The notes under the pieces were generated by a model. The model saw only the letters and a list, made by a program, of their open reading frames with translations. It ran no database searches and was not told the DNA's origin. A program made the translations under genes and the position numbers. A stretch of DNA of 50,288 nucleotides, from the IMG/VR virus record IMGVR_UViG_3300032753_000044, positions 1 through 50,288 of that record; one strand, written 5' to 3'. Below, piece after piece: positions 1,798 through 32,295 of the stretch (positions within the stretch are counted from its first letter, which is position 1; each line of letters begins with the position of its first letter). This DNA comes from a virus.

Positions 1798-2204
1798 GTG
1801 AGATACTTTGTTCAAAATTAATATGTCCGGATGGTACAATTTTACATTCAAAACATCGTCATGACTATGTAGACCATATAGATGCTAATGGATATTATTA
1901 CTTTTTAGATGGTGGGAATGATTATGTCAGATCATCACTAAATGAAATTAGTGGAACATATCTGACTATTACTACTGATGACCCCCACTCTTTAATTAGA
2001 GAACATTTCGTTTGGGGTACATATGGTAAGAATGGTGATGAAGAGTTACGCTATATAATTTTGAAAGATATGGAAGATGAACATGTAGAAGCTGTTTTGG
2101 AATATTTGGAATATGGTGAGAAATGGGTACATATCATTGAGATATTTAGAGATGAATTGAGATATAGAAAAGCAATGAATATTGATAATTTGGGTGATTT
2201 ATGA
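1794..2204 (+). CDS. Hypothetical phage protein, 136 aa
   Basis: The start is set at ATG 1794 (MSEILCSKL) because it overlaps the upstream stop as ATGA; the longer frame from 1776 has no such signal. The product has an N-terminal beta-rich part with a His/Asp-rich stretch (HSKHRHDYVDH) and a helical acidic C-terminus ending in a basic helix (FRDELRYR). It looks like a small conserved protein of aquatic T4-like phages, but I cannot name a function. The stop overlaps the next gene (ATGA). Confidence 0.65.
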   Translation: MSEILCSKLICPDGTILHSKHRHDYVDHIDANGYYYFLDGGNDYVRSSLNEISGTYLTITTDDPHSLIREHFVWGTYGKNGDEELRYIILKDMEDEHVEAVLEYLEYGEKWVHIIEIFRDELRYRKAMNIDNLGDL

Positions 2205-2824
2205 CATTGAATGAGCAGTTTAAAAAAAATGGTTTTGTGGTACTCGAAAATGTTCTTTTGGGGGAAACTCTTGAGATTTTATCGATAGATTTTAAGATGA
2301 TGCGAGATACCACAAAATATCTTTCTGGTCTATCTGATGATGAATTTAAGATCGAATACTCGGACACCCAAGTACCAAAATCATTTAATCATTATTCGGC
2401 ATATTGTTTTGAAAGTTTATTGGTATATCTCAAACCAAAAATGGAGGAGATTATTGGTAAGGAATTATACGCAACATACTGTTATGCTAGAATTATGCAA
2501 GCTGGGGCATCTATGGCAAAACATAGGGATAGACCATCGTGTCAGTATTCTGCTACGTTATGTATTCAGGATGATAAAACTCACCCATACCCAATATACA
2601 TAGAGAATTATGAAGGAGAGGTGTCTTGCGTTACATTGGAACCCGGGAGTATGTTGGTGTATCATGGCACACAATTAAATCACTGGAGACAAGAGTTTTT
2701 TGGATCGGAACATATCCAAACTTTTCTACATTATGTTGATGCGAATGGGCCATATAAAAATTATAAATATGATAAACGACCAATATTAGGTTTATCAAGC
2801 GATTATAAAGGAGTAAATACATGA
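2201..2824 (+). CDS. 2OG-Fe(II) oxygenase-family protein
   Basis: This 207-aa protein has the layout of a phage 2-oxoglutarate/Fe(II)-dependent dioxygenase. A His-x-Asp pair lies in KHRD (H108, D110). A distal His follows the GSMLVYHGTQLNHW segment (H155 or H161), and a final strand QTFLHYV completes the double-stranded beta-helix. Such enzymes hydroxylate proteins or small molecules; the substrate is unknown. It sits directly upstream of the glycine-rich tail protein, overlapping as ATGA, and another oxygenase lies two genes downstream, so tail-protein modification is a possible but unproven role. Confidence 0.7.
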   Translation: MTLNEQFKKNGFVVLENVLLGETLEILSIDFKMMRDTTKYLSGLSDDEFKIEYSDTQVPKSFNHYSAYCFESLLVYLKPKMEEIIGKELYATYCYARIMQAGASMAKHRDRPSCQYSATLCIQDDKTHPYPIYIENYEGEVSCVTLEPGSMLVYHGTQLNHWRQEFFGSEHIQTFLHYVDANGPYKNYKYDKRPILGLSSDYKGVNT

Positions 2825-3423
2825 CAGCGGTCTTGGGTAATGGTAATATAACATTTGGGGATTCCACGGCACAGGCAACAGCATTTGCTGGATATGGTGG
2901 ACAAGTATTCACTGCACCGGGAACTTTCACTATACCAACAGGGGTGACTAAATTGAAAGTTACTGTGGTTGGTTCTGGTGGTGGTGGTGGTGGTAATGGT
3001 GGTGGTGGTGGTGGTGGTGGTGGTGGTATTTCTTTTCTTACGGGATTAACTCCTGGTGGTACTATTAGTGTTACAACTGGTGCTGCTGGTACTCCTGGTG
3101 CTGCACCAGCAGCACCAGGCGGTGTTGGTGGATCATCAAGTATTGCATCTGGTACACAGGCTATAACCACAATAACATGTACTGGTGGTGGTGGTGGTGG
3201 TCCTGCTGCTGGTGGTGTTGGTGGTGTTGGTTCTGGTGCAGGATATAATGTGTATGGTGGTGGTGGTAGTGCATTTGGTGGTGGTGGTGGTGGTGGTCCG
3301 TCATTACTCAGTGGGGGGAAACCAGTACCAGCGGCAGCAACTTATGGTGGTGGTGGTGGTGGTGGTGGTGGTCCTGGTGCTGGTGGTGCAGGCTCCTCTG
3401 GTGTTGTGATGTTCGAATGGTAA
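2821..3423 (+). CDS. Glycine-rich tail fibre/adhesin-like protein
   Basis: The 200-aa product starts with a fibre-type segment (GNITFGDSTAQATAF). A short beta domain (VFTAPGTFTIPTGVTKLKV) follows, then about 130 residues dominated by polyglycine runs of 5-10 residues, and the end GVVMFEW. This matches the glycine-rich domains of phage tail tips and adhesins, which form polyglycine-II sandwiches and recognise host surfaces. It overlaps the upstream oxygenase stop (ATGA), and a small tail-associated gene follows. Nearly every glycine is encoded by GGT, giving DNA microsatellites. A tail role is inferred; no trimerisation or chaperone domain is visible. Confidence 0.7.
   Translation: MTAVLGNGNITFGDSTAQATAFAGYGGQVFTAPGTFTIPTGVTKLKVTVVGSGGGGGGNGGGGGGGGGGISFLTGLTPGGTISVTTGAAGTPGAAPAAPGGVGGSSSIASGTQAITTITCTGGGGGGPAAGGVGGVGSGAGYNVYGGGGSAFGGGGGGGPSLLSGGKPVPAAATYGGGGGGGGGPGAGGAGSSGVVMFEW
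2977..3390 (+). repeat. GGT trinucleotide microsatellite clusters
   Basis: Several uninterrupted or nearly uninterrupted GGT runs occur, at about 2977-2994, 2998-3029, 3184-3201, 3256-3267, 3277-3297 and 3346-3372. Identical codon choice far beyond the needs of glycine coding makes these sites prone to in-frame slippage, so repeat number probably varies among phage progeny. Confidence 0.85.
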
Positions 3424-3433
3424 GGAGATATTC

Positions 3434-3625
3434 ATGAAAGCATTAATATCAAAAAAAGAAACTGTGGAAACTGGATATCGTGTGGCTCAGGTTGAACCAG
3501 ATGATAATATTTTTCCATTAGCAATTGATATGTTCTGGGCAGATTGTCCAGACACCATAATTGCTGATATGTACTGGTATGATCCAGAGAATGAATCATT
3601 TGTGGAAGTTATAATCCCTGCTTAA
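3434..3625 (+). CDS. Small tail-associated protein, 63 aa
   Basis: An AAGGAG Shine-Dalgarno precedes ATG 3434. The product begins MKALISKKETVETGYRVAQV and contains FWADCPDTIIADMYWYDP. Similar 60-75 aa proteins are, from memory, commonly found just after tail-fibre genes in T4-like cyanophages. Its role is unknown; position suggests a fibre accessory or assembly function. It lies between the glycine-rich protein and a second oxygenase. Confidence 0.6.
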   Translation: MKALISKKETVETGYRVAQVEPDDNIFPLAIDMFWADCPDTIIADMYWYDPENESFVEVIIPA

Positions 3626-3639
3626 ATTAGGAATTTGTT

Positions 3640-4236
3640 ATGTGGAATATTAGTGATAAAAAAGATAATTACAGCGAAACGTATGCGTGTTCCGAAGGTC
3701 TCTTTACGAAGGGGGAATGTGAACTAATCATAAAACAAGGATTGGAATTACAAAAACAAGTTGGACAAACGTTCGATGTAGATCCAAACAAACCAGAACC
3801 CGATAAAACTATCAGGAACAATTCGGTGGCGTGGATTAATCCGGAAAACAAAGACACACTTTGGATATATGAACGCATCATGCTCGCACTAAAAGAAGCA
3901 AATGATTCTATTTTCAATTATGCATTAACTTGGGGTGAGGATTTCCAATTCACGATTTATGATGAGGTTGATAACCATTACACCAGACATATGGATTCTG
4001 GTGTATATGGTGATGCTGCAACCCGAAAACTAACATTTTCGTTACAATTATCTGATCCTGAATATTATGAAGGTAGTAGATTGTTGTTACACACTCAACA
4101 CAAACCAATTGAAGCAAATATCATACAAGGAACAATTAACTTCTTCCCGTCATACATTTTACATGAAGTTACTCCATTAACATCAGGTAAAAGATATGCG
4201 GTAGTTGGTTGGATACATGGGCCAAAATTTAGATGA
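3640..4236 (+). CDS. PKHD-type 2OG-Fe(II) hydroxylase
   Basis: This 198-aa protein carries the full iron and cosubstrate set of the prolyl-hydroxylase-like class: HMD (H117, D119), the distal His in ILHEV (H175) and the 2OG-binding Arg in GKRYAVVGW (R185). The core spans about residues 100-195 and follows an N-terminal helical region. It probably hydroxylates a protein or peptide side chain; the substrate is unknown. Its stop overlaps the following gene by an ATGA. It is the second oxygenase flanking the tail-adhesin pair. Confidence 0.85.
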   Translation: MWNISDKKDNYSETYACSEGLFTKGECELIIKQGLELQKQVGQTFDVDPNKPEPDKTIRNNSVAWINPENKDTLWIYERIMLALKEANDSIFNYALTWGEDFQFTIYDEVDNHYTRHMDSGVYGDAATRKLTFSLQLSDPEYYEGSRLLLHTQHKPIEANIIQGTINFFPSYILHEVTPLTSGKRYAVVGWIHGPKFR

Positions 4237-5058: not shown

Positions 5059-5186
5059 AAGCATTTCTGGATGTTCTAGGAACTAAAGTTCTACAGGGTT
5101 TACTTCTGATAACATTTGTGATAACATTACCCATAATCGTTGTTATCATGATCAAAGAAGAAATATCATTTAGGAAACAAAAATGA
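5055..5186 (+). CDS. Single-TM protein, 43 aa
   Basis: ATG 5055 overlaps the previous stop (ATGA) and the frame ends at TGA 5184-5186, which overlaps the next ATG 5183. One strong hydrophobic helix (LLLITFVITLPIIVVIMI) is followed by a charged tail. It is probably an inner-membrane peptide of unknown role. Confidence 0.5.
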   Translation: MKAFLDVLGTKVLQGLLLITFVITLPIIVVIMIKEEISFRKQK

Positions 5187-5522: not shown

Positions 5523-5796
5523 AACTGAGTTGGTGTTGGTGGATACAATTCACCAATTTCATGTCCGGTATCTAATCGAGGTGCCGAGGGGTAAGTCTGA
5601 ATATGCATTGGATACTGTGGCTTGTGATGGTGGATCTGAGTTCTCACAAAAATTCATTGGTGAAAATGTTGTCACACACAGAGTGATCACAAAAGAAGAA
5701 GCACTGGTGTTGTGTGATGAAGAAAATTCATACTGTACAACATGGTCCGATGAAAAGAAATTGAATATATTTATGACTCCGTGGGTTGGTGATTAA
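5512..5796 (+). CDS. Conserved hypothetical phage protein, 94 aa
   Basis: It starts inside the 3' end of the previous gene. The mixed alpha/beta product contains YALDTVACDGGSEFSQKF and VITKEEALVLCDEEN, a pattern I associate with a small uncharacterised family in T4-like phages. No catalytic motif is visible. Confidence 0.6.
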   Translation: MVNETELVLVDTIHQFHVRYLIEVPRGKSEYALDTVACDGGSEFSQKFIGENVVTHRVITKEEALVLCDEENSYCTTWSDEKKLNIFMTPWVGD

Positions 5797-5835
5797 TGCC
5801 CAATAATATTTGATGTTTAACTTTGAGGAAATGAT

Positions 5836-6027
5836 ATGCGTAAAAGAGATAGTGGTGTGATTGGATGGGTTTTTGTTTGTACTTTGGTTTTAACATTGTT
5901 TTCTGCATGGGTTACACATGTTGTGGTGTGTATTAAAACTGCATCATGGGGATTCTTGATTGCTGGTGCGATTGCATTCCCTGTTGCGTGGGTTCATGGG
6001 ATTGGATACTGGCTTGGAGTTTGGTGA
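5836..6027 (+). CDS. Two-TM small membrane protein, 63 aa
   Basis: GAGGAAATGAT precedes ATG 5836. The product has a charged start (MRKRDSG) and two hydrophobic helices (GWVFVCTLVLTLFSAWV and GFLIAGAIAFPVAWVHGIGY). Similar WGFLIAGA...HGIG proteins recur in aquatic myoviruses. The function is unknown; a role at the inner membrane is inferred. The stop overlaps the next start (TGATG). Confidence 0.6.
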   Translation: MRKRDSGVIGWVFVCTLVLTLFSAWVTHVVVCIKTASWGFLIAGAIAFPVAWVHGIGYWLGVW

Positions 6028-6647
6028 TGCGTGTATATATGTCAACATATCGCTCACACTGGCTATCACCCTATGTTATTTTAGAGAAATTCTTTTTTTG
6101 GCGTAAGGGGTATGATGTTTACGAAAGTACTCCACCAAAGTGGTTACAATCTATTATGGGTGGTATACAAAAGTTTCTCAACATTGTACATCCACGTATT
6201 CAATATGTGAAGATTGATGAGTATGATTTGTGGGATGCTGACCATACTTTGGGCAAAATTATCCTACCTATGCTCAAAATGTTGAGAGAATCGAAGGAGG
6301 GTGCACCAAATACTGATGATGAGGATGTGCCGGAAATACTTAGATCAACCTCAGCACCAGAGAAAGAACACGAGTGGGACACCGATGCCAACCATTTTCT
6401 GAGATGGGATTGGATACTTAGCGAAGAGATATTTGCATTTGAATCTCTGTTTACTGATTGGGCTCTTGATTTTACTTCTGGGGTATATGACATTAAATGG
6501 GTTAAGGGTGATGATGGTCTAACCGAAATGACCATAGGACCAAATCATACATACGAAACTGATTATGTCGGTGTGGCGGAATATCAAAAACGCATTGATA
6601 ATGGGTTTAGACTGTGGGGAAAATATTTTCAGGCTCATTGGTGTTGA
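6027..6647 (+). CDS. Conserved T4-like phage protein, about 206 aa
   Basis: The start is taken at ATG 6027 (TGATG with the upstream stop); ATG 6039 is an alternative. The product is soluble and aromatic-rich. Recognisable conserved blocks are HWLSPYVILEKFFFW, VKIDEYDLWDADHTLG, LPMLKMLRESKEGAP, VPEILRSTSAP and EWDTDANHFLRWDW. From memory this is a widely conserved uncharacterised protein of cyanophages and relatives; it may be virion-associated or act on a nucleotide or host target. It forms a coupled group with the small genes around it. Confidence 0.7.
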   Translation: MRVYMSTYRSHWLSPYVILEKFFFWRKGYDVYESTPPKWLQSIMGGIQKFLNIVHPRIQYVKIDEYDLWDADHTLGKIILPMLKMLRESKEGAPNTDDEDVPEILRSTSAPEKEHEWDTDANHFLRWDWILSEEIFAFESLFTDWALDFTSGVYDIKWVKGDDGLTEMTIGPNHTYETDYVGVAEYQKRIDNGFRLWGKYFQAHWC

Positions 6648-7671: not shown

Positions 7672-9708
7672 ATGAAAAAGTTACTCTTATCACCATATCT
7701 TGCTTTATTCACTTTATTGTTGGTTATTGGGGTAAGAGTAGCAGACCCAACATTTGTGGAGAGTATCAGATTAAGATTTTTTGATACTCTTCTAATACAA
7801 AATACACAACATTCTGATAATATTAAGATAGTAAATATAGATGATGAAACACTTTCTGAAAAAGGTCAGTTCCCATTCCCAAGAAATGAATATGCAAAAA
7901 GTATATTGGATTTGTATAATCACGGTGCTGGTATCGTTTTATATAACATCTTTATGCCAGATGCTGACAGATTTGGATACGACTCCAGTTTATCTGAGGT
8001 ACTAAAACAAGTACCGGTAGTTTTACCACAAACAGGCACAAGTGATATTGTAGTTCAGGATTATGATCCGTTCAGACCTGGAGTATCTGTTATAGGTACA
8101 GGTGATGTAGGAATTGAATACAAGAGTATCATTCCTAACATTAAACAATTTAATAATACTGCTGCTGGTATAGGTGTTGTTAATACATTACCAGAGATTG
8201 ATGGTGTTACTAGAAGAATACCAATGGTCATTTCTGTTAATGGATTATTGTATCCAAGTATCAGTATGGAAGTATTACGTGTAGCATCAGGTGATCCATC
8301 ATTTCAAGTAAAGGTTAATGAAGGTTCAATTGAAGCGGTACGTATACCACAATTTGGCAAGATCCAAACCGATAATATTGGTAGGATATGGGTTAAACCA
8401 GCAACATTTGATGAATACTCATTATCAAACCTTCCAGACAATTTCAATGGTGCTATAGTAATTGTAGGTCTTACAGCCAAGGGATTAAATAATCCTGTAG
8501 CGACTGCGAATGGTGCTGTATTCCCACATCATCTACATGCATCTGTAATAAATACATTAGTATCTGGTACTAATATATCTAGACCAGATTGGGCTACTGG
8601 TGCAGAGATACTTGCAACACTAATTATAAGCATTTTATTGATTGTAATATCAAGGTGGAAATATGGAATACTTGTTTTCTTTGCTGTTTTATACGGCATT
8701 TATATTGTTTCTCAGCGTATATATTCCAATTACTTTTATTTGCTTGATTGTACTTTTCCTCTCTTTGCAATTGGAATCGTATATCTACATGTATACACAT
8801 CGAAATTCTTAACAGAATTAAAACAAAAACTACAAATCAAGAAACAATTTGGAAGTTATGTTTCTCCAATTATGGTTGAAAGGTTACAGAAAAATCCAGA
8901 GTTAATTAAACTGGGCGGTGAGCGAAAAGAATTATCTATAGTATTCAGTGATTTACGAAATTTTACCCGACTTGGGGAGTCATTTGGTGATGATGTTGAG
9001 GGGCTCACTTCTGTTATGAATGACTACATGACAGCTATATCCGAACCAATACTCAACAATGATGGTTGTTTGATTAAGTTCATTGGTGATGCTTCTCTTC
9101 ATGTACACAATGCACCATTAGATGATATAAACCATGCTAAGAATGCTGTTAAGACTGCTCTTGGTATGATTGCTGCTGCTGATACATTCAATGATACATT
9201 AGAAGCAAAAGGTAAACCAAAGATTGGTATGGGTGCGGGTGTTAATACTGGACAAACATTAATTGGTAATATTGGCTCCAAAGCGAGATTTGGTTATGAT
9301 GTTCTTGGTGATAGTGTCAGTACTGCCGCTAGATTAGAAGGGCAGACTAAAGCATATGGCGTATTGCTAATCATTGGACCCGAGACAGCGAAACTTGTAG
9401 AGGATGAATACTTTGTCATTCAATTAGATACGATTGCGGTTAAAGGTAAAACAATTGGATTAGACATCTATACTGTGTTACCAATGGATAGTTCACACGC
9501 ACATAGACTCAAACATAATAAAATGTTGCAAGATTATAAAGACCAACAATGGTGGACTGCTACTGTTGCTTGTCTTGAATTGAAAGGCTCATTTAATGGT
9601 GAATTGGATTACTATTATGATATGGTGATACAACGAATTGATTCTTATGCTGATGATCAATCATTCCCAAAGGATTGGGATGGAATTTATAGAGCAACAT
9701 CTAAGTAG
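7672..9708 (+). CDS. CHASE2-domain transmembrane class III adenylate/guanylate cyclase
   Basis: The 678-aa product has an N-terminal TM (about 5-22) and an extracytoplasmic CHASE2 sensor (about 38-300; IKIVNIDDETLSEKGQFPFPR is its hallmark start). About three TM helices follow (310-375), then a linker (KQFGSYVSPIMVERL) and a class III cyclase domain (about 420-600). Metal-binding aspartates D427 (FSDLRNFT) and D473 (FIGDA) are present, as are specificity Lys K469 and transition-state Arg R554. The usual Asn is Ser550. This architecture makes cyclic nucleotide in response to periplasmic signals; cAMP is the likely product. The gene starts one base after the endolysin stop, without a clear Shine-Dalgarno, and converges on the FecR/curli operon. 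Such a receptor cyclase is very unusual in a phage. Confidence 0.9.
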   Translation: MKKLLLSPYLALFTLLLVIGVRVADPTFVESIRLRFFDTLLIQNTQHSDNIKIVNIDDETLSEKGQFPFPRNEYAKSILDLYNHGAGIVLYNIFMPDADRFGYDSSLSEVLKQVPVVLPQTGTSDIVVQDYDPFRPGVSVIGTGDVGIEYKSIIPNIKQFNNTAAGIGVVNTLPEIDGVTRRIPMVISVNGLLYPSISMEVLRVASGDPSFQVKVNEGSIEAVRIPQFGKIQTDNIGRIWVKPATFDEYSLSNLPDNFNGAIVIVGLTAKGLNNPVATANGAVFPHHLHASVINTLVSGTNISRPDWATGAEILATLIISILLIVISRWKYGILVFFAVLYGIYIVSQRIYSNYFYLLDCTFPLFAIGIVYLHVYTSKFLTELKQKLQIKKQFGSYVSPIMVERLQKNPELIKLGGERKELSIVFSDLRNFTRLGESFGDDVEGLTSVMNDYMTAISEPILNNDGCLIKFIGDASLHVHNAPLDDINHAKNAVKTALGMIAAADTFNDTLEAKGKPKIGMGAGVNTGQTLIGNIGSKARFGYDVLGDSVSTAARLEGQTKAYGVLLIIGPETAKLVEDEYFVIQLDTIAVKGKTIGLDIYTVLPMDSSHAHRLKHNKMLQDYKDQQWWTATVACLELKGSFNGELDYYYDMVIQRIDSYADDQSFPKDWDGIYRATSK

Positions 9709-9715
9709 ATTGGTG

Positions 9716-9747
9716 TATGGTGTATTTCTAAACTGAAATACACCATA
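9716..9747. terminator. Hairpin terminator between convergent operons
   Basis: A perfect 13-bp inverted repeat (TATGGTGTATTTC with its complement, 6-nt loop) fills the 49-nt gap between the cyclase stop and the end of the (-) strand holin-like gene. There is no long T tract, so efficiency as an intrinsic terminator is uncertain, but the position supports a shared, bidirectional transcription stop. Confidence 0.7.
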
Positions 9748-9757
9748 TCTAAAATAG

Positions 9758-10036
9758 TTATGATTCTGTTTTGTTGAATTCTATTTTCTCTTTAGTTCTG
9801 CCATGTGTTGATAATCCAACGATAGCTCCCATTGACAGATGATACAACCCACCACCCTGTAGTGTGACTGCTTGCCACATATCCACATGTTGGCCTGGGT
9901 TTAAATATTCTAATACATTATATATGATTGGTCCTAACATGAAGTCGAATGTACATATCAAAACATAACTCCATGCAAGCATCGGTCTCCAACCTGTTAT
10001 CAGAAAACTTTCTGGTTGTTTCTTTGCTACTGCCAT
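9758..10036 (-). CDS. Holin-like multi-TM protein, 92 aa
   Basis: The protein has hydrophobic segments at about residues 16-40 (WRPMLAWSYVLICTFDFMLG) and 60-80 (QGGGLYHLSMGAIVG), and a charged end (GRTKEKIEF). The RP-x-LAW-Y...FD start and the GG-L-x-H-x-S-M-GA-I-G motif match my memory of three-TM phage holins that form inner-membrane lesions for the endolysin. It is the last gene of the curli/FecR operon, two bases after the FecR stop, and faces the endolysin-cyclase pair across the terminator. Holin activity is inferred. Confidence 0.65.
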   Translation of the reverse strand: MAVAKKQPESFLITGWRPMLAWSYVLICTFDFMLGPIIYNVLEYLNPGQHVDMWQAVTLQGGGLYHLSMGAIVGLSTHGRTKEKIEFNKTES

Positions 10037-10037
10037 T

Positions 10038-11102
10038 TTAATTTACCCCCTGTTTAATAAAAATAGTATTAGTGGCTGTTTCGGAATTCTGCATTTTCAA
10101 AGTTGTCCCATCTTGTATCAATGTTATATTATAACCACTGTCTTTGTTAATTGATAATATAGTACTCTGTCTCACTGATCTTTGGACTTGCCAATATGTT
10201 TGCTTGTCGAATATATACACAGAATTTGCAGGATTGTATCCAGCAGCAAATGTTGTTATAGTGTCCAAGCCATTCAATGCATCAACCATGTAATTTACTT
10301 CTAATGCATTTACACTCAACTCATTGAATTTTGCAAATGGATCTTCAAATACTCTTACTGATAATGCATCTTTCTCTAACCCAGTAAAATTTAAGGCTGA
10401 ACTAGCTGTATTCTCTTCAATTAATTTCTTGGTAATCTCTTTTGGTGGTTTCACTATCATCATATTATTGATAGCAGATTCAGCAATTAATAGCACCACG
10501 GGATTTAATGGTTTAACTTCATTTGAAGTTGTCACTGTTGCCTGAAATGCTTGATTCAATACAACCAAACCAACCGCAGTTCTAACTTCAATTTCACCAA
10601 CACTTCCATCTAAATTAGGTAATAATATAATAGTGGATTGACCTATCTCATCTACTGTCATTGAGAATGCGGTACCACGAACTGCTATGGTTGCTGTTGG
10701 TGTATTAATAGCAACATTCTTTGCATTGTCGTGTGCAATATTACCCGAAGCATATCTAACAGTGCCTATAGCACATTTTAATGCTAATTTACCTGCCGAT
10801 TTATTCTTAGGGTCATACACAAAATCATCAATCACAAGTTTAGAATTATCAGTTACTTTAACTTGTGTATCATCTTCAAATGATATCCCAACTTCACCCT
10901 TTCCGGTTTCAACAGTATCCATACTATCAATACTAGTTGACTTTTTTGCTTCTATTATAGTTTTTTCTCGTGTAATAGAAGCATTACCCTTTTGTTCTGT
11001 TATTGAACCTATACTAGCAATACAATTAGTGTTGAATGACACTAACAGCAGCATTGCTACCGGTAAGATTAATGATGACACTATTCGGATTCGTGGTTCC
11101 AT
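10038..11102 (-). CDS. Secreted FecR-domain protein
   Basis: The 354-aa product begins with a signal peptide (IRIVSSLILPVAMLLLVSF). A FecR domain follows at about residues 35-150: a repeated beta pattern with VETGKGEVGISFEDDTQVKV, then KLALKCAIGTVRYASG and TPTATIAVRGTAFSM, the family's signature. The C-terminal 150 residues are unique and possibly beta-rich. FecR domains act in the periplasm as sensors or anti-sigma partners, and in bacteria are often encoded beside CHASE2 cyclases. Here the cyclase is the convergent neighbour. The 5' end overlaps the curlin gene by 77 nt, including the whole signal peptide. Confidence 0.85.
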   Translation of the reverse strand: MEPRIRIVSSLILPVAMLLLVSFNTNCIASIGSITEQKGNASITREKTIIEAKKSTSIDSMDTVETGKGEVGISFEDDTQVKVTDNSKLVIDDFVYDPKNKSAGKLALKCAIGTVRYASGNIAHDNAKNVAINTPTATIAVRGTAFSMTVDEIGQSTIILLPNLDGSVGEIEVRTAVGLVVLNQAFQATVTTSNEVKPLNPVVLLIAESAINNMMIVKPPKEITKKLIEENTASSALNFTGLEKDALSVRVFEDPFAKFNELSVNALEVNYMVDALNGLDTITTFAAGYNPANSVYIFDKQTYWQVQRSVRQSTILSINKDSGYNITLIQDGTTLKMQNSETATNTIFIKQGVN

Positions 11103-11736
11103 CTTGTGTCACTCCAATGACATTATTGCTACCAATATTTGATATTGCAATGTTATTACCTTTAACGATATTAGAACCATTAGCACCAATTTGATTAGTG
11201 GTGATAGTGTTGTTTGATCCTGTTACCGTAAATGAATCGACAACATATTTACTGTTAATGGTGTTGGTTAGGATGTTGTTACTACCAGTTATTAATGCTG
11301 TATAATCATAATTACCCGAATCATGTAATATACCAATGTTCATATTTGATATGTTATTACTACCGGTAAACGTCATGTTTAATAACCCAGAAGCGGTCCC
11401 CATTACACCCATATTGATATTGGTAGAGTTGCTATTTCCGGTTTGTGTTATGTTTGCGGTCGTGCCACCACCAATGATATTACCAGTTAATGCATTGTTC
11501 ATACCATCTTGGGTGAATGTCATAAACATCGAATTACCCTCAATGATAAATGATGGATATGCTACTGAAGTTGGGTCGCCTACTGTATTATTAGAGCCAG
11601 TTTGAGTAATACTTACACTTGAACTATCAGCATTAGATTGGTCAATGTAAACCGAATTGCCACCACTATCCACACTAAGTGATGATTGACTTAGTGTTAA
11701 CATTATTATGAATAACAATCCTCTTAAAATATTCAT
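11026..11736 (-). CDS. Curlin-repeat (CsgA/CsgB-like) secreted protein
   Basis: The 236-aa product has a signal peptide (about 1-22) and then many degenerate curlin-type repeats with the S/N-x-x-x-x-Q-x-G-x-x-N spacing, for example SITQTGSNNTVG, NITQTGNSNSTN and VIGVTQDG. Asn, Gly, Ser and Thr dominate, as in amyloid curli subunits exported through CsgG. It sits immediately downstream of csgG (ATGA overlap) with AGGAAA upstream. It may polymerise at the cell surface or nucleate host fibres; assembly by a phage product is unproven. The repeats are longer and more variable than in E. coli CsgA (151 aa). Confidence 0.8.
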   Translation of the reverse strand: MNILRGLLFIIMLTLSQSSLSVDSGGNSVYIDQSNADSSSVSITQTGSNNTVGDPTSVAYPSFIIEGNSMFMTFTQDGMNNALTGNIIGGGTTANITQTGNSNSTNINMGVMGTASGLLNMTFTGSNNISNMNIGILHDSGNYDYTALITGSNNILTNTINSKYVVDSFTVTGSNNTITTNQIGANGSNIVKGNNIAISNIGSNNVIGVTQDGTTNPNSVIINLTGSNAAVSVIQH

Positions 11737-12536
11737 TTAATTATTTCCTGTTTAAAAGTTGATGAGAATCCCCATATTTTCTTACTTTCACCTTTAATAA
11801 TTAATTGTTCGACTGCTAAATCCAATGCAGATTTCAGGGCATATATCCCCGCTTCTGTTTTAGTAGCACCAACCTCATTTTCAAATGATTGTGTACCTAA
11901 ATCAAAGAATTTAAATACAGCCACACCCAATGTATAACTCAATATCGTTTTTTGTGTATTAACCGTGAGTAAAACCTCACCAGTCTGTGTGCTGATTGCC
12001 CTTATTGAAACCGTCACCATATCTTCCTGATATTGTGTATCCGGACCAATTCCCAAATATCTAACACCAATACCACCGGTACGAATATTAGTGTCATATG
12101 ATACGATAGACCCTTCAATTATCATCCCTGCATATAATATAGAACCTATTTGTTTGGGGTCTTTCGCTTCATCTCTTGCAGATCTTATTAGCTGCCTTTC
12201 TTTCAGTAAGTCTTCCAATCCTACTCTTTCTACCACCCTAAACCAATTACCATCCCCAGCATCTTCTAAAGATTTTAATAATATCGACTCCCCACCTTGT
12301 GTAACAGCAGATGATAATTTTGCTATAGTAGCAGAATCTTTTCTTTGTCCGGTTTTATCCATAAAAGAATAAACCGCAACAACCACTTTACCATCTCTTG
12401 GTGGTGGTAAATGAACTATATCTTTTGGTTTAGGTGCATTGAATGCTCCAGCATCATTAGTCCATGTCACCATAGGTAATGGCCAATCTGAGCATGATCC
12501 CAATAGTAGACATGATAATATTATCAGTATTCTCAT
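11733..12536 (-). CDS. csgG: CsgG-family outer-membrane curli secretion lipoprotein
   Basis: The 267-aa product has a lipoprotein signal (LLLGSC, Cys15) and full-length CsgG features: VVVAVYSFMDKTGQRK, FRVVERVGLEDLLKERQL, GGIGVRYLGIGPDTQYQED, and TGEVLLTVNTQKTILSYTLG. In E. coli, CsgG forms a nonameric outer-membrane pore that exports curli subunits with CsgE and CsgF. Here csgF lies directly upstream (TAATG overlap) and a curlin-like gene downstream; no CsgE was found. A phage CsgG could export its own curlin or open the outer membrane. Identity is clear from the motifs; the role is inferred. Confidence 0.95.
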   Translation of the reverse strand: MRILIILSCLLLGSCSDWPLPMVTWTNDAGAFNAPKPKDIVHLPPPRDGKVVVAVYSFMDKTGQRKDSATIAKLSSAVTQGGESILLKSLEDAGDGNWFRVVERVGLEDLLKERQLIRSARDEAKDPKQIGSILYAGMIIEGSIVSYDTNIRTGGIGVRYLGIGPDTQYQEDMVTVSIRAISTQTGEVLLTVNTQKTILSYTLGVAVFKFFDLGTQSFENEVGATKTEAGIYALKSALDLAVEQLIIKGESKKIWGFSSTFKQEIIK

Positions 12537-12970
12537 TAGAACGTAAAACTACCAATCGGGATGGATATTTGAGTAATATTACCCGTTGTCTGATCAGTAA
12601 CATTAAGTGAAATCTGATCCGCAGTTTTTGTATATTGTATAGTATTACCCTGAATAGTAACTGTTCCACTATTCTGTGGGTTCTCTCCAAATAAATTATT
12701 AATCAATTGCGTTGATAATTGGGCATACACCCGACTCTCAAAATTGTTTAGAAACTTTGAAAGAGTTGTATTATCAGCAGCAGTTGCTGCATCTTTTGCT
12801 GCTTGTAGACGCGCTGATTCTAATGCTTGCTTTCTTGTGGTTTCGGTATTCTCTATGGTCTGAACATGTGAAGAATATCCAATACCACTGAATGATGGTG
12901 ATTTGAATGCAAAAGTTTGTTCTGCATGAACATTAAATGTTAGAAGCATCAATACTAATAAGACTCTCAT
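12536..12970 (-). CDS. csgF: CsgF-family curli assembly factor
   Basis: The start is placed at 12970, where AAAGGA precedes ATG by six bases and a signal peptide follows (MRVLLVLMLLTFNVHA); the longer frame adds a basic leader without support. The mature protein begins EQTFAFKSPSFSG, like the CsgF N-terminus that plugs into the CsgG beta-barrel (E. coli TMTFQFRNPNFGG). The end LNVTDQTTGNITQISIPIGSF matches the C-terminal CsgF beta domain. CsgF sits at the pore mouth and couples secretion to nucleation. An extra Ala/Arg-rich helical region (about 45-75) lies between the two. Confidence 0.9.
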   Translation of the reverse strand: MRVLLVLMLLTFNVHAEQTFAFKSPSFSGIGYSSHVQTIENTETTRKQALESARLQAAKDAATAADNTTLSKFLNNFESRVYAQLSTQLINNLFGENPQNSGTVTIQGNTIQYTKTADQISLNVTDQTTGNITQISIPIGSFTF

Positions 12971-12981
12971 TTTGTATCCTT

Positions 12982-13233
12982 TTATTTGTCGATATTGTTT
13001 TCTCGCATTTGTAGAACAGTATTTAGTTTTGCCGTAATTCGAAGGCAATCAGCATCAACAAGACGAATTTTGTCTATAAGTGATATTAATTCTTTATTCG
13101 CATCTACCAATACTGGATTGATTTCATTGATGACAAAATCCCAGACAAATTTTACCATTTTGAGCATCCATGTTGCGGCAATCAAAGGAAATCCATATTT
13201 CCCAATTAGTTCGGATATTTGTGTTATGTCCAT
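12982..13233 (-). CDS. Small one-TM protein with coiled-coil tail (holin/UviB-like), 83 aa
   Basis: A TM segment (YGFPLIAATWMLKMVKFVWDFV) is followed by a heptad-like helix (LISLIDKIRLVDADCLRITAKL). The YGFP motif and K-x-V spacing are shared with the third member of this set. The layout resembles UviB/BhlA-type or phage-holin-like proteins, but function is uncertain. It lies just upstream of csgF, so it is probably co-expressed with the curli genes. Confidence 0.65.
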   Translation of the reverse strand: MDITQISELIGKYGFPLIAATWMLKMVKFVWDFVINEINPVLVDANKELISLIDKIRLVDADCLRITAKLNTVLQMRENNIDK

Positions 13234-23146: not shown

Positions 23147-24478
23147 GTGGTAATTCTCTCGATAGATCCTTTAGGGTTATCTCTTCACTGGTGTTTAGAT
23201 TGCATTGCTGCCGGACACACAGTTAAACTATTTACATCATCACCCAAGGCTAAACCGATTGGTGATGGTCTTGTGGACAAAATTGACACTTGGGGACATG
23301 CCAAAGCATACGCCAAGTTTGCGGATCTAATATTCGTGGCAGATAACATTGATTTCATGGATGATATTCTAGAACTTCGTAGGCAAGGCCTCCCCGTTTT
23401 TGGTCCAGATAAAAAATCTGCTAGGTTGGAAGTAGATAGAATGTATGGGCAAAATGTTATTAAAGAGTCGGGTAACAAAGTTATCCCATCTGTAGAATTT
23501 TCTAATTATGATCAAGCAATTGCTTATGTTAAGGCAAATCCAAATAGATATTGCTGCAAACCATGTGGTGAAGTTGAAGATAAGTCATTGACATACTTAG
23601 CAAAAGATCCAGCAGATTTAATTGGATTCCTAACTCGGATGAAGCGAGTTGGTAAGAAAGCTGGTGTAACCAAATTCATTCTACAAGAATTCAAAAAAGG
23701 CACCGAACTTGCTGTTATGGGTATGTTTGGTCCTGGTGGATTCAACAAATATTTCTGTGAGAACTTTGAACATAAGAAATTGATGAATGGTGATCTTGGT
23801 GTTAGTACTGGAGAAATGGGCACAGCTATAAGGTACACACAGAATTCTAAGTTAGCTGAAATGATGTTAAAACCATTAGAACCATTATTACATGAGCTAA
23901 AGTATGTTGGGTTTGTTGATATTAGTGTTATTGTTGATGAAAACGATGGTACTCCTTGGCCGATGGAATTTACTCAAAGACCAGGTTATCCTATCCATAA
24001 CATCCAACAACCATTAATCAATGGAGATCCTGCTCAATGGATGGTCGATCTTATCAATGGTAAGGATACATTTGAGGTGATTGGTCCTGAGACTTGTGTT
24101 GGTGTTGTTATGGCTAACTCAGACTTCCCATTTGCTAAGAAAGAACTCGAAGCATATCTAGACTTCCCTATTATCACAGATGATGTGAAAGACATTTCTA
24201 TGGTGTCTCCATGTGAAGTAAAATTATCATCTACTATTAAAATGGTTGATGATGAGATTGTAGAAGATTACCCTGAATGGGGTACTGCCGGTACGTATAT
24301 TCTCGTGTGTAATGGTATTGCTGATACAATATCAGAAGCAAGAGATAAAGCATATAAAGTAGTGAAGCAAATTAAATTAGGTAATGATCCAGCATATCGT
24401 ACTGATATTGGCGATTCATGTGAAGAAAGGTTAAAGAATCTACACAAGTTTGGCTTTTGTAAAGATTGGAAATTTTAG
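23147..24478 (+). CDS. PurD-like ATP-grasp ligase
   Basis: This 443-aa protein starts with GTG after AAAAGGAAA. The order is an N-terminal Rossmann-like domain, an ATP-grasp core (VKANPNRYCCKPCGE, LQEFKKGTELAVMGMF, EFTQRPGYPIHN for metal and ATP) and a C-terminal hybrid domain (ISEARDKAYKVVKQI ... YRTDIG). This is the layout of phosphoribosylamine-glycine ligase in purine synthesis. The canonical substrate loop GGREHAL near residue 10 is absent (DPLGLSLHWC instead), so the substrate may differ. Confidence 0.75.
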   Translation: MVILSIDPLGLSLHWCLDCIAAGHTVKLFTSSPKAKPIGDGLVDKIDTWGHAKAYAKFADLIFVADNIDFMDDILELRRQGLPVFGPDKKSARLEVDRMYGQNVIKESGNKVIPSVEFSNYDQAIAYVKANPNRYCCKPCGEVEDKSLTYLAKDPADLIGFLTRMKRVGKKAGVTKFILQEFKKGTELAVMGMFGPGGFNKYFCENFEHKKLMNGDLGVSTGEMGTAIRYTQNSKLAEMMLKPLEPLLHELKYVGFVDISVIVDENDGTPWPMEFTQRPGYPIHNIQQPLINGDPAQWMVDLINGKDTFEVIGPETCVGVVMANSDFPFAKKELEAYLDFPIITDDVKDISMVSPCEVKLSSTIKMVDDEIVEDYPEWGTAGTYILVCNGIADTISEARDKAYKVVKQIKLGNDPAYRTDIGDSCEERLKNLHKFGFCKDWKF

Positions 24479-30902: not shown

Positions 30903-30951
30903 AACCGCAATAAAACCGTAATAAAACCGTAATAAAACCGAAAATCAACCG
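30903..30951 (+). repeat. 11-nt A-rich direct repeats before gene 32 (candidate autogenous operator)
   Basis: The pentamer AACCG recurs exactly every 11 nt (30903, 30914, 30925, 30936, 30947), with unit consensus AATAAAACCGT. The region is rich in A and poor in pairing, ends three bases before the Shine-Dalgarno AAGGA, and ends 13 bases before ATG 30965. T4 gp32 represses its own translation by binding an unstructured leader, so this is a likely operator. Confidence 0.65.
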
Positions 30952-30964
30952 AAAAGGAAACTAA

Positions 30965-32295
30965 ATGAGTTTTGCAAATTTAAAAAGAAACAGTGGTAAT
31001 CTTGAGAAGTTAACCAAATCACTTGAGAAGTTAAATTCTAAAGGTTCTACCAATAATTCACAAGACAATTATTGGAAACCTGAAGTAGACAAATCAGGAA
31101 ATGGTATGGCAACTTTTAGATTTCTACCAACGCCCGATGCTGATGGTGATTCAGATCCTTGGGTAAAAATCTACACACATGGATTTCAAGGTCCTGGTGG
31201 GTGGTTAATTGATAACTGTCTTACTACTAAACACAAACAATGTCCCGTTAACGTTTAATCAAACACGAGCGGCTTTGTTGAGTAATCAACATCGAAAAAT
31301 CTTGTGAATTGTCTGGGAAAGCTAAGTTCTTATAAATACTGGTATGTGGACACAACATTAAGGTATGAAAATGAAATATGATTTATCGGACCACTTCAAA
31401 TAACAAACAGAGAGATTCAATATCTCAGGGGTATAACCATGTACTATTTGTTATTAAAAAAGTTTCTAAAGACAGGAAGTTATTTGAAGACGATAAAACA
31501 TGTTTTGGATGTTATTTGAATATGTTAATCAGCAGCCAAGCCCTTAATGGGAAGGTTCAACGACTATCCGATGACTCGGAGTACAGACCAAATGCGATTG
31601 GGTCTGGAAGTGCAAGAGTCCCTATTTAGATAGGGACGTGATATAGTCTGCTCTGCATAGAAATATGTAGCTGGGTAAATTCCCGGTGTATACTTAGCGA
31701 GTATATGCGAACATTAGGTTGTGAGGCTAATTCGGTCCTGTGGAATACAGGAATTGAAGCCAATAGAAAGATTGTAAGTTCACGTAAGCGTAGATTGAGT
31801 TATGTGTCAAATATCTATATGATAGATGACCCAAAAAATCCAGAGAACAATGGCAAGGTTTTCTTATTCAGATATGGAGCTAAAATATTTGAAAAGATTG
31901 AAAGTGCTATGGTCCCTCAGTTTGCTGACGAAATAGCATTTATCCCATTTGACTTATGGGAAGGTGCCAACTTCAAATTAAAGATCCGCAAGGTTGAAGG
32001 TTATCAAAATTATGATAAATCTGAATTTGAAACACAATCTGCATTGTTTGATGATGATGATAGAATGGAAAAAGTTTGGGCTAGAACATATCCATTGCTA
32101 CCTATCATTGATGATAAAGAATTCAAATCATTTGAAGATATTCAGGCTAGATTGGATAAGGTTTTAGGTCTTGGTGGCACAGTAAGAACTACTGCGGAAC
32201 AAGCACGAGTTGCACCAAAACCAAAACCAGCCGATGAATCACATGATGATGATTTTGATATGGCATATTTCGAATCACTTGTTGATTCTGACTAA
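30965..32295 (+). CDS. 32: gp32-like single-stranded DNA-binding protein (gene split by a group I intron)
   Basis: Exon 1 is 30965-31248 and exon 2 is 31719-32295; spliced they give 286 codons. T4 gp32 (301 aa) has the same plan: a basic N-terminal cooperativity region (MSFANLKRNSGNLEKLTKSL), a core with a zinc site, and an acidic C-terminal tail (DDDFDMAYFESLVDSD). The zinc ligands are His72, Cys85, Cys93 and Cys96 (H-x12-C-x7-C-x2-C). Unspliced, the first frame ends at TAA 31257-31259 just after CPV. The exon junction recreates CPVCEANSVLW. gp32 coats ssDNA and interacts with gp59. The leader carries an 11-nt repeat array. Confidence 0.9.
31249..31718 (+). other. Group I self-splicing intron in gene 32, 470 nt
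   Basis: Splice sites are set by pairing. Exon end CCGU pairs with GCGG at 31269-31272 (U-G at the 5' site, P1), and CACGA at 31264-31268 pairs with the exon 2 start UUGUG (P10). The intron ends in G. The catalytic core is visible as AATCAGCAGCCAAGC near 31537, GGTTCAACGACTAT at about 31554-31567 and ATATAGTC at 31641-31648. GACTAT (31562-31567) and ATAGTC form P7; an 8-bp hairpin GTCCCTAT/ATAGGGAC lies between them. It resembles the T4 td intron class. No intact homing endonuclease is present; a short open frame at 31378-31629 overlaps the core and is probably not a gene. Confidence 0.9.

Follow-up and report, generated by a model that had tools for sequence, protein, structure and literature searches.

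A group I intron within gene 32

We analysed positions 1–50,288 of IMG/VR virus record IMGVR_UViG_3300032753_000044, a stretch of 50,288 nucleotides that we call the window; positions are on its plus strand unless marked (−). At 31249–31718 a 470-nt insertion interrupts the T4-type gene 32 of a T4-like phage. The flanking ORFs (30965–31258, 97 aa, and 31705–32295) each hold one half of gp32, the T4-type single-stranded DNA-binding protein. When the entire window was scanned with Rfam cmscan, the sole match was to Intron_gpI (RF00028) at 31245–31670 (57.8 bits, E 3.7e-12, above the gathering score of 50 bits). This match bears out the group I intron that a first-pass annotation, made from the sequence alone, had proposed in gene 32, and it is consistent with the splice sites and frame proposed there. 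By tblastn and alignment to intronless gp32, exon 1 spans 30965–31248, from Met1 through the second base of the Val95 codon, and exon 2 spans 31719–32295, from the final base of that codon to the stop. The IA2-type intron between them was delimited by RF00028, by covariation over six relatives and by the reading frame. It is a phase 2 intron that splits the Val95 codon as GT|T; it therefore occupies the position first assigned to it, but lies inside this codon and not between Val95 and Cys96 as originally described. Positions 31717 and 31718 were both candidates for omega-G, and only 31718 keeps the frame. The intron folded more strongly than all of 100 shuffled sequences (z −3.8).

Joining 31248 to 31719 yields a gp32 of 286 amino acids, full length as anticipated, which aligned with intronless gp32 without a gap at the junction and matched PF08804 (E 8e-40), phrog_224 (8e-100) and solved T4 gp32 chains. 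Its His-Cys3 zinc site is complete, with H72, C85, C93 and C96 aligned with the T4 ligands. The unspliced frame at 30965–31258 ends two codons past the splice site, and because it stops after residue 97, the supply of gp32 would depend on splicing. C96 is the first whole codon in exon 2, and to this extent the intron splits the zinc motif, as had been noted. The split is nevertheless incidental, because the gp32 of one relative, L290, reads DPV|S and is missing the zinc cysteines, yet has the intron at the same codon; insertion took place at a conserved CCC-GT codon pair, and the split simply follows from that. Immediately upstream of the gene-32 start, at 30903–30940, an 11-base unit, AATAAAACCGT, occurs three and a half times in tandem. 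By analogy with T4, these repeats are possibly an unstructured operator for gp32 autoregulation.

Relatives with an intron at the same codon

Comparison with the gene 32 of relatives found the same intron, inserted at this very codon, in at least six further contig groups of IMG/VR (L003, L220, L290/L322/L324, L321, L325 and L326). A search with the spliced gp32 identified L003 (IMGVR_UViG_3300031885_000460), in which the match breaks exactly at residue 95; the intron there is 1,276 nt long, splits the same codon and contains a complete ORF of 356 aa. A scan with the intron core detected at least 120 IMG/VR stretches, among them L220 and L290, which also split gp32 at this codon. A pattern combining the exon end, guide and core matched nine stretches, of which eight were gp32 genes interrupted at the same codon (L004, on the same contig as L003, and L220, L290, L322, L324, L321, L325 and L326) and one was a chance match (L323). 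L290, L322 and L324 hold one and the same intron. Five of the six other groups can be read into exon 2, although the L325 contig stops seven codons into it, and the sixth, L321, ends inside the intron. Six sequences extend into exon 2, and in every one the splice is in frame and P1 and P10 are present. The window and all of the intron-bearing relatives are metagenome contigs without a cultured phage.

No intron was detected in 162 distinct gp32 sequences from viral and genome contigs. Among isolate phages, we found no gp32 intron in the 60 tblastn matches examined of 2,409 records, nor in the intron-core matches examined, whose nameable host genes were td or terminase. A candidate second type of gp32 interruption, in L130, was rejected as an assembly gap of N's. 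The recovery of one conserved group I core pattern in at least 120 IMG/VR stretches indicates that this type of intron is common in environmental phages.

Conserved structure and covariation

P1 (31245–31272) forms between CCGU of the 5′ exon (31245–31248) and the guide GCGG (31269–31272) and is the same in all six introns, as are the U·G pair at the 5′ splice site (U31248·G31269) and omega-G at 31718. The P10 guide CACGA (31264–31268) pairs with UUGUG of the 3′ exon (31719–31723), and 4 or 5 of the 5 positions are paired in each relative. Between the window (CACGA/UUGUG) and L290 (CACUA/UAGUG) a guide base and an exon base have both altered, a co-change that speaks for selection on splicing at precisely these positions. 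The six-intron alignment placed the 5′ strands of P3 and P4 at 31300–31306 and 31310–31316 (region 31300–31317) and, with cmscan, the region of P4′ and of P6 through P9.2 at 31529–31718. This region contains P7 (31562–31566 with 31644–31648), P7.1 (31568–31579), P7.2 (31584–31606), P3′ (31611–31617), P8 (31618–31637), P9 (31653–31670), P9.1 (31671–31686) and P9.2 (31688–31706). P1, P10 and P7 were thus found where the first-pass annotation had paired them, and P10 persists in relatives partly by compensatory change.

We drew a model of 75 base pairs from the window sequence (P1, P2, P3, P4, P6, P6a, P7, P7.1, P7.2, P8, P9, P9.1, P9.2 and P10) and applied it to alignment A3, which comprises the six introns with the endonuclease region taken out. 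Over the six introns 96.2% of cells were paired, compared with 35–40% for shifted partners; since the model comes from one of the six, this percentage is favoured, but compensatory changes to the degree observed are not explained thereby. Such two-sided changes occurred at 36 of the 75 pairs, against 5–13 when the partner strand was shifted by 1–3 bases, and the observed pairing and covariation were reached by no shuffle. P7.1 and P7.2 were paired in 92% and 100% of cells, again with compensatory changes, and these extra helices between P7 and P3′ assign the intron to subgroup IA2. Three lines of evidence support a group I intron with these splice sites: the covariance model, the absence of gaps after splicing in six sequences, and the strong covariation of base pairs. 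We put at about 93% the probability that gene 32 holds a group I intron splicing at 31248/31719.

The endonuclease gene and its control

An endonuclease ORF of 347–371 aa is intact in the introns of L003, L290 and L325, frameshifted in L220 and deleted in the window and L326. The L003 ORF matched PF24308 (DUF7487; 4.6e-9) and the homing endonuclease family phrog_3339 (2.6e-6), beyond which searches of Pfam, NCBIfam and PDB gave no named function. E214, D252, K265 and Q284 are invariant in the relatives' endonuclease, which has a PD...ExK spacing, suggesting a PD-(D/E)XK nuclease. The motif order E...PD...ExK...Q recalls that of PD-(D/E)XK homing endonucleases such as I-Ssp6803I, although there was no PDB sequence match. 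Helices and strands are predicted in an order that fits PD-(D/E)XK, but the AlphaFold model was poor (pLDDT 42), too weak to be used in searching for related folds. A tblastn search of 125 intron loci detected the endonuclease family in seven, all of them gp32 loci. The L321 match among these seven is a distant, free-standing relative (27% identity; 5530–6534 (−) of that contig), and the L321 gp32 also has the intron. In L220, positions 2139–4006 hold a ClpP-like gene, an opposite-strand ORF (2799–3686) and then a ClpP-like C-terminal piece (3731–4006). The ORF matches GIY-YIG weakly and DUF7487 repeats strongly, and the arrangement resembles a free-standing homing endonuclease next to a gene that has been broken or duplicated.

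A candidate T4-type late promoter box, TATAAATA, lies at 31331–31338, upstream of the lost endonuclease gene. It is positioned 26 nt upstream of the endonuclease start in the window, L003, L220 and L325, and L290 has a near variant, TCTAAATA, 22 nt upstream. The box was not found in the L326 intron, which itself has no endonuclease. TATAAATA is not enriched across the window (7 found, 9 expected); four of its six other sites there are 18–51 nt upstream of ORFs, among which are the divergent genes for the baseplate tail-tube cap and for head closure. From position alone, we infer that TATAAATA serves as a late promoter of the endonuclease gene. A hairpin over the endonuclease start region is predicted in long transcripts (−6.4 to −9.7 kcal/mol) and is weaker or absent with transcription from the box (0 to −3.8 kcal/mol), whereas the computed accessibility of the ribosome-binding region showed no consistent change between long and box-started transcripts. 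In T4, internal promoters of the late or middle class, together with a start-region hairpin, control the intron endonucleases (PMC2988022), and by analogy the promoter box and hairpin may control the endonuclease here. Resemblance to the homing site over the promoter, as in an I-TevI-like operator, exceeded shuffles only in L290 and gave no consistent signal.

Probable transfer and decay of the intron

Of the 470 bases that the introns of the window and L003 have in common, 5 differ (98.9% identity), whereas the same two sequences are 78.2% identical in exon 1, 77.6% in exon 2 and 70.1% in the upstream gene. The intron in L003, an unpublished contig, is longer by 806 bp, and the extra piece is most of the endonuclease ORF that is intact there. 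The window copy has lost its endonuclease gene by this 806-bp deletion. By comparison with L003, a 5′ remnant at 31365–31403 retains the first 12 codons, followed by a stop made at the junction 31400/31401, and C-terminal codons at 31401–31629 keep the frame and stop of the intact ORF (L003 3404–4474), overlapping the ribozyme core. The C-terminal remnant is out of frame with the 12 N-terminal codons. With no intact homing endonuclease gene (HEG), the window intron does not itself rank as a mobile, HEG-bearing intron; it belongs to a mobile lineage but has decayed, and we infer its mobility from its relatives. The contrast in identity between intron and exons suggests that the intron moved recently between the window and L003 lineages and then decayed.

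The six gp32 introns cluster among 101 distinct cores (2 tree changes; 0 of 500 shuffles as low) and form one clade in the core tree, with weak support (0.59). A FastTree run on gp32 scattered the intron-bearing genes, but an approximately unbiased (AU) test did not reject a single clade of them (p 0.865), and because of this we do not claim repeated independent invasions from the gp32 tree. Most simply, a single intron lineage would home to the Val95 codon, with decay of the endonuclease afterwards.

The unrejected single clade would also suit an old, vertically inherited intron in which constraint, not recent transfer, accounts for the near-identity of the window and L003 copies. We consider this very unlikely. 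The 98.9% identity takes in what remains of the endonuclease gene, a sequence dead in the window and hence unconstrained there, whereas the exons of the essential gp32 are down to 78% identity between the two, and the other gp32 introns differ by 20–30% even within the core.

Loss of splicing itself offers another account, in which a dead intron leaves gp32 to be translated as two separate polypeptides, an N part of 97 aa and a C part of 196 aa starting at 31705, like the mobE-split nrdA of phage Aeh1. Both part ORFs are present in the window, and an in-frame ATG lies 14 nt upstream of exon 2 in the window and L003. This start is not conserved, however: L220 has no such ATG, and the last ATG before exon 2 in L290 and L325 meets a stop at once. 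Two polypeptides would also cut the zinc site in two, and a dead intron would have no need of ribozyme helices, P1 and P10 kept by compensatory changes, so that we hold this account to be highly improbable. Every record is a metagenome assembly, which raises the question of a chimera, but several contig groups with different exons have the same site and in-frame splicing, and chimeras would not keep P10 pairing with each exon; an assembly artefact is therefore exceedingly improbable.

Proposed history and comparison with known introns

In the history that we favour, of a splicing intron from a homing lineage, the intron RNA would fold as a group I ribozyme, and guanosine would attack after U31248, held by the U·G pair of P1. 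Exon joining at omega-G 31718, aided by P10, would then restore gp32. The endonuclease gene, located in the P5 loop behind the late-type promoter box, would have driven invasion of intronless gene-32 alleles at the Val95 codon, and homing may have been the route of transfer between the window and L003 lineages. Minus its 806 bp, the window copy would still be able to splice but unable to drive its own spread.

The group I introns of T4 lie in td, nrdB and nrdD, with I-TevI, I-TevIII and I-TevII (PMC2988022). Like the gene-32 intron, they occupy genes of DNA metabolism, house in a peripheral loop an endonuclease ORF whose 3′ end lies within the core, and possess an internal late promoter and a hairpin near the endonuclease start (PMC2988022); the nrdB intron, like that of the window, has a truncated HEG (PMC2993671). 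They differ in their host genes and in their endonucleases, which are GIY-YIG or HNH proteins, in contrast to the DUF7487, PD-(D/E)XK-like protein here. Group I introns in gene 43 of Aeromonas phage 25 and phage JSE also reside in a replication gene of T4-like phages and have no complete HEG of their own (truncated in JSE) (PMC2993671), but their host is the DNA polymerase gene and not gene 32. The td intron of Vibrio phage pVa5 and the terminase introns of Escherichia phage JEP1 (RF00028 99 and 93 bits) have similar cores (70–71% over about 140 nt) in other host genes, and pVa5 carries an HNH endonuclease.

We found no published gene-32 intron among the open-access papers that we searched, although a report elsewhere is possible. 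The view of the first-pass annotation that such an intron is unusual holds in this sense, but it is no one-off, since a mobile intron lineage uses the site. What is new is the gene-32 site and the intron lineage; the kind of element is itself well known. Specialists would not expect gene 32, which belongs to the core replication genes of T4-like phages, to be a repeated intron home. Endonuclease genes that are intact, frameshifted or deleted occur alongside one another, so that a cycle of gain and decay can be read from sequence. For annotation there is a practical warning, as intron-split gp32 genes look like two unrelated ORFs.

T4 gp32 binds its own mRNA. Conceivably, gp32 acts on splicing of its own intron, so that splicing and the amount of gp32 would regulate each other in a loop acting on the host gene, but we regard this as very improbable. 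Intron homing in T4 itself uses gp32 (PMC2988022), and an intron in the gene of this homing protein makes intron–host regulation testable.

Other genes in the window and related contigs

A cassette unusual for a phage, with curli export genes next to a cyclase, occupies 7672–13048. It consists of a CHASE2-adenylate/guanylate cyclase (7672–9708) and, on the minus strand, a FecR-domain protein (10038–11102 (−)), a curlin-repeat protein (11026–11736 (−)), CsgG (11733–12536 (−)) and CsgF (12536–13048 (−)). The window ORF at 23147–24478 is weakly similar to the ATP-grasp (2e-7) and C (6.5e-7) domains of phosphoribosylglycinamide synthetase. In three of the phage contigs the gp32 region is preceded, at a distance of a few hundred bases, by a permuted tmRNA of alphaproteobacterial type (RF01849 90.8 bits, RF04321 79.3 bits); this tmRNA is at 5119–5518 in L290, 2311–2710 in L322 and 2327–2726 in L324.
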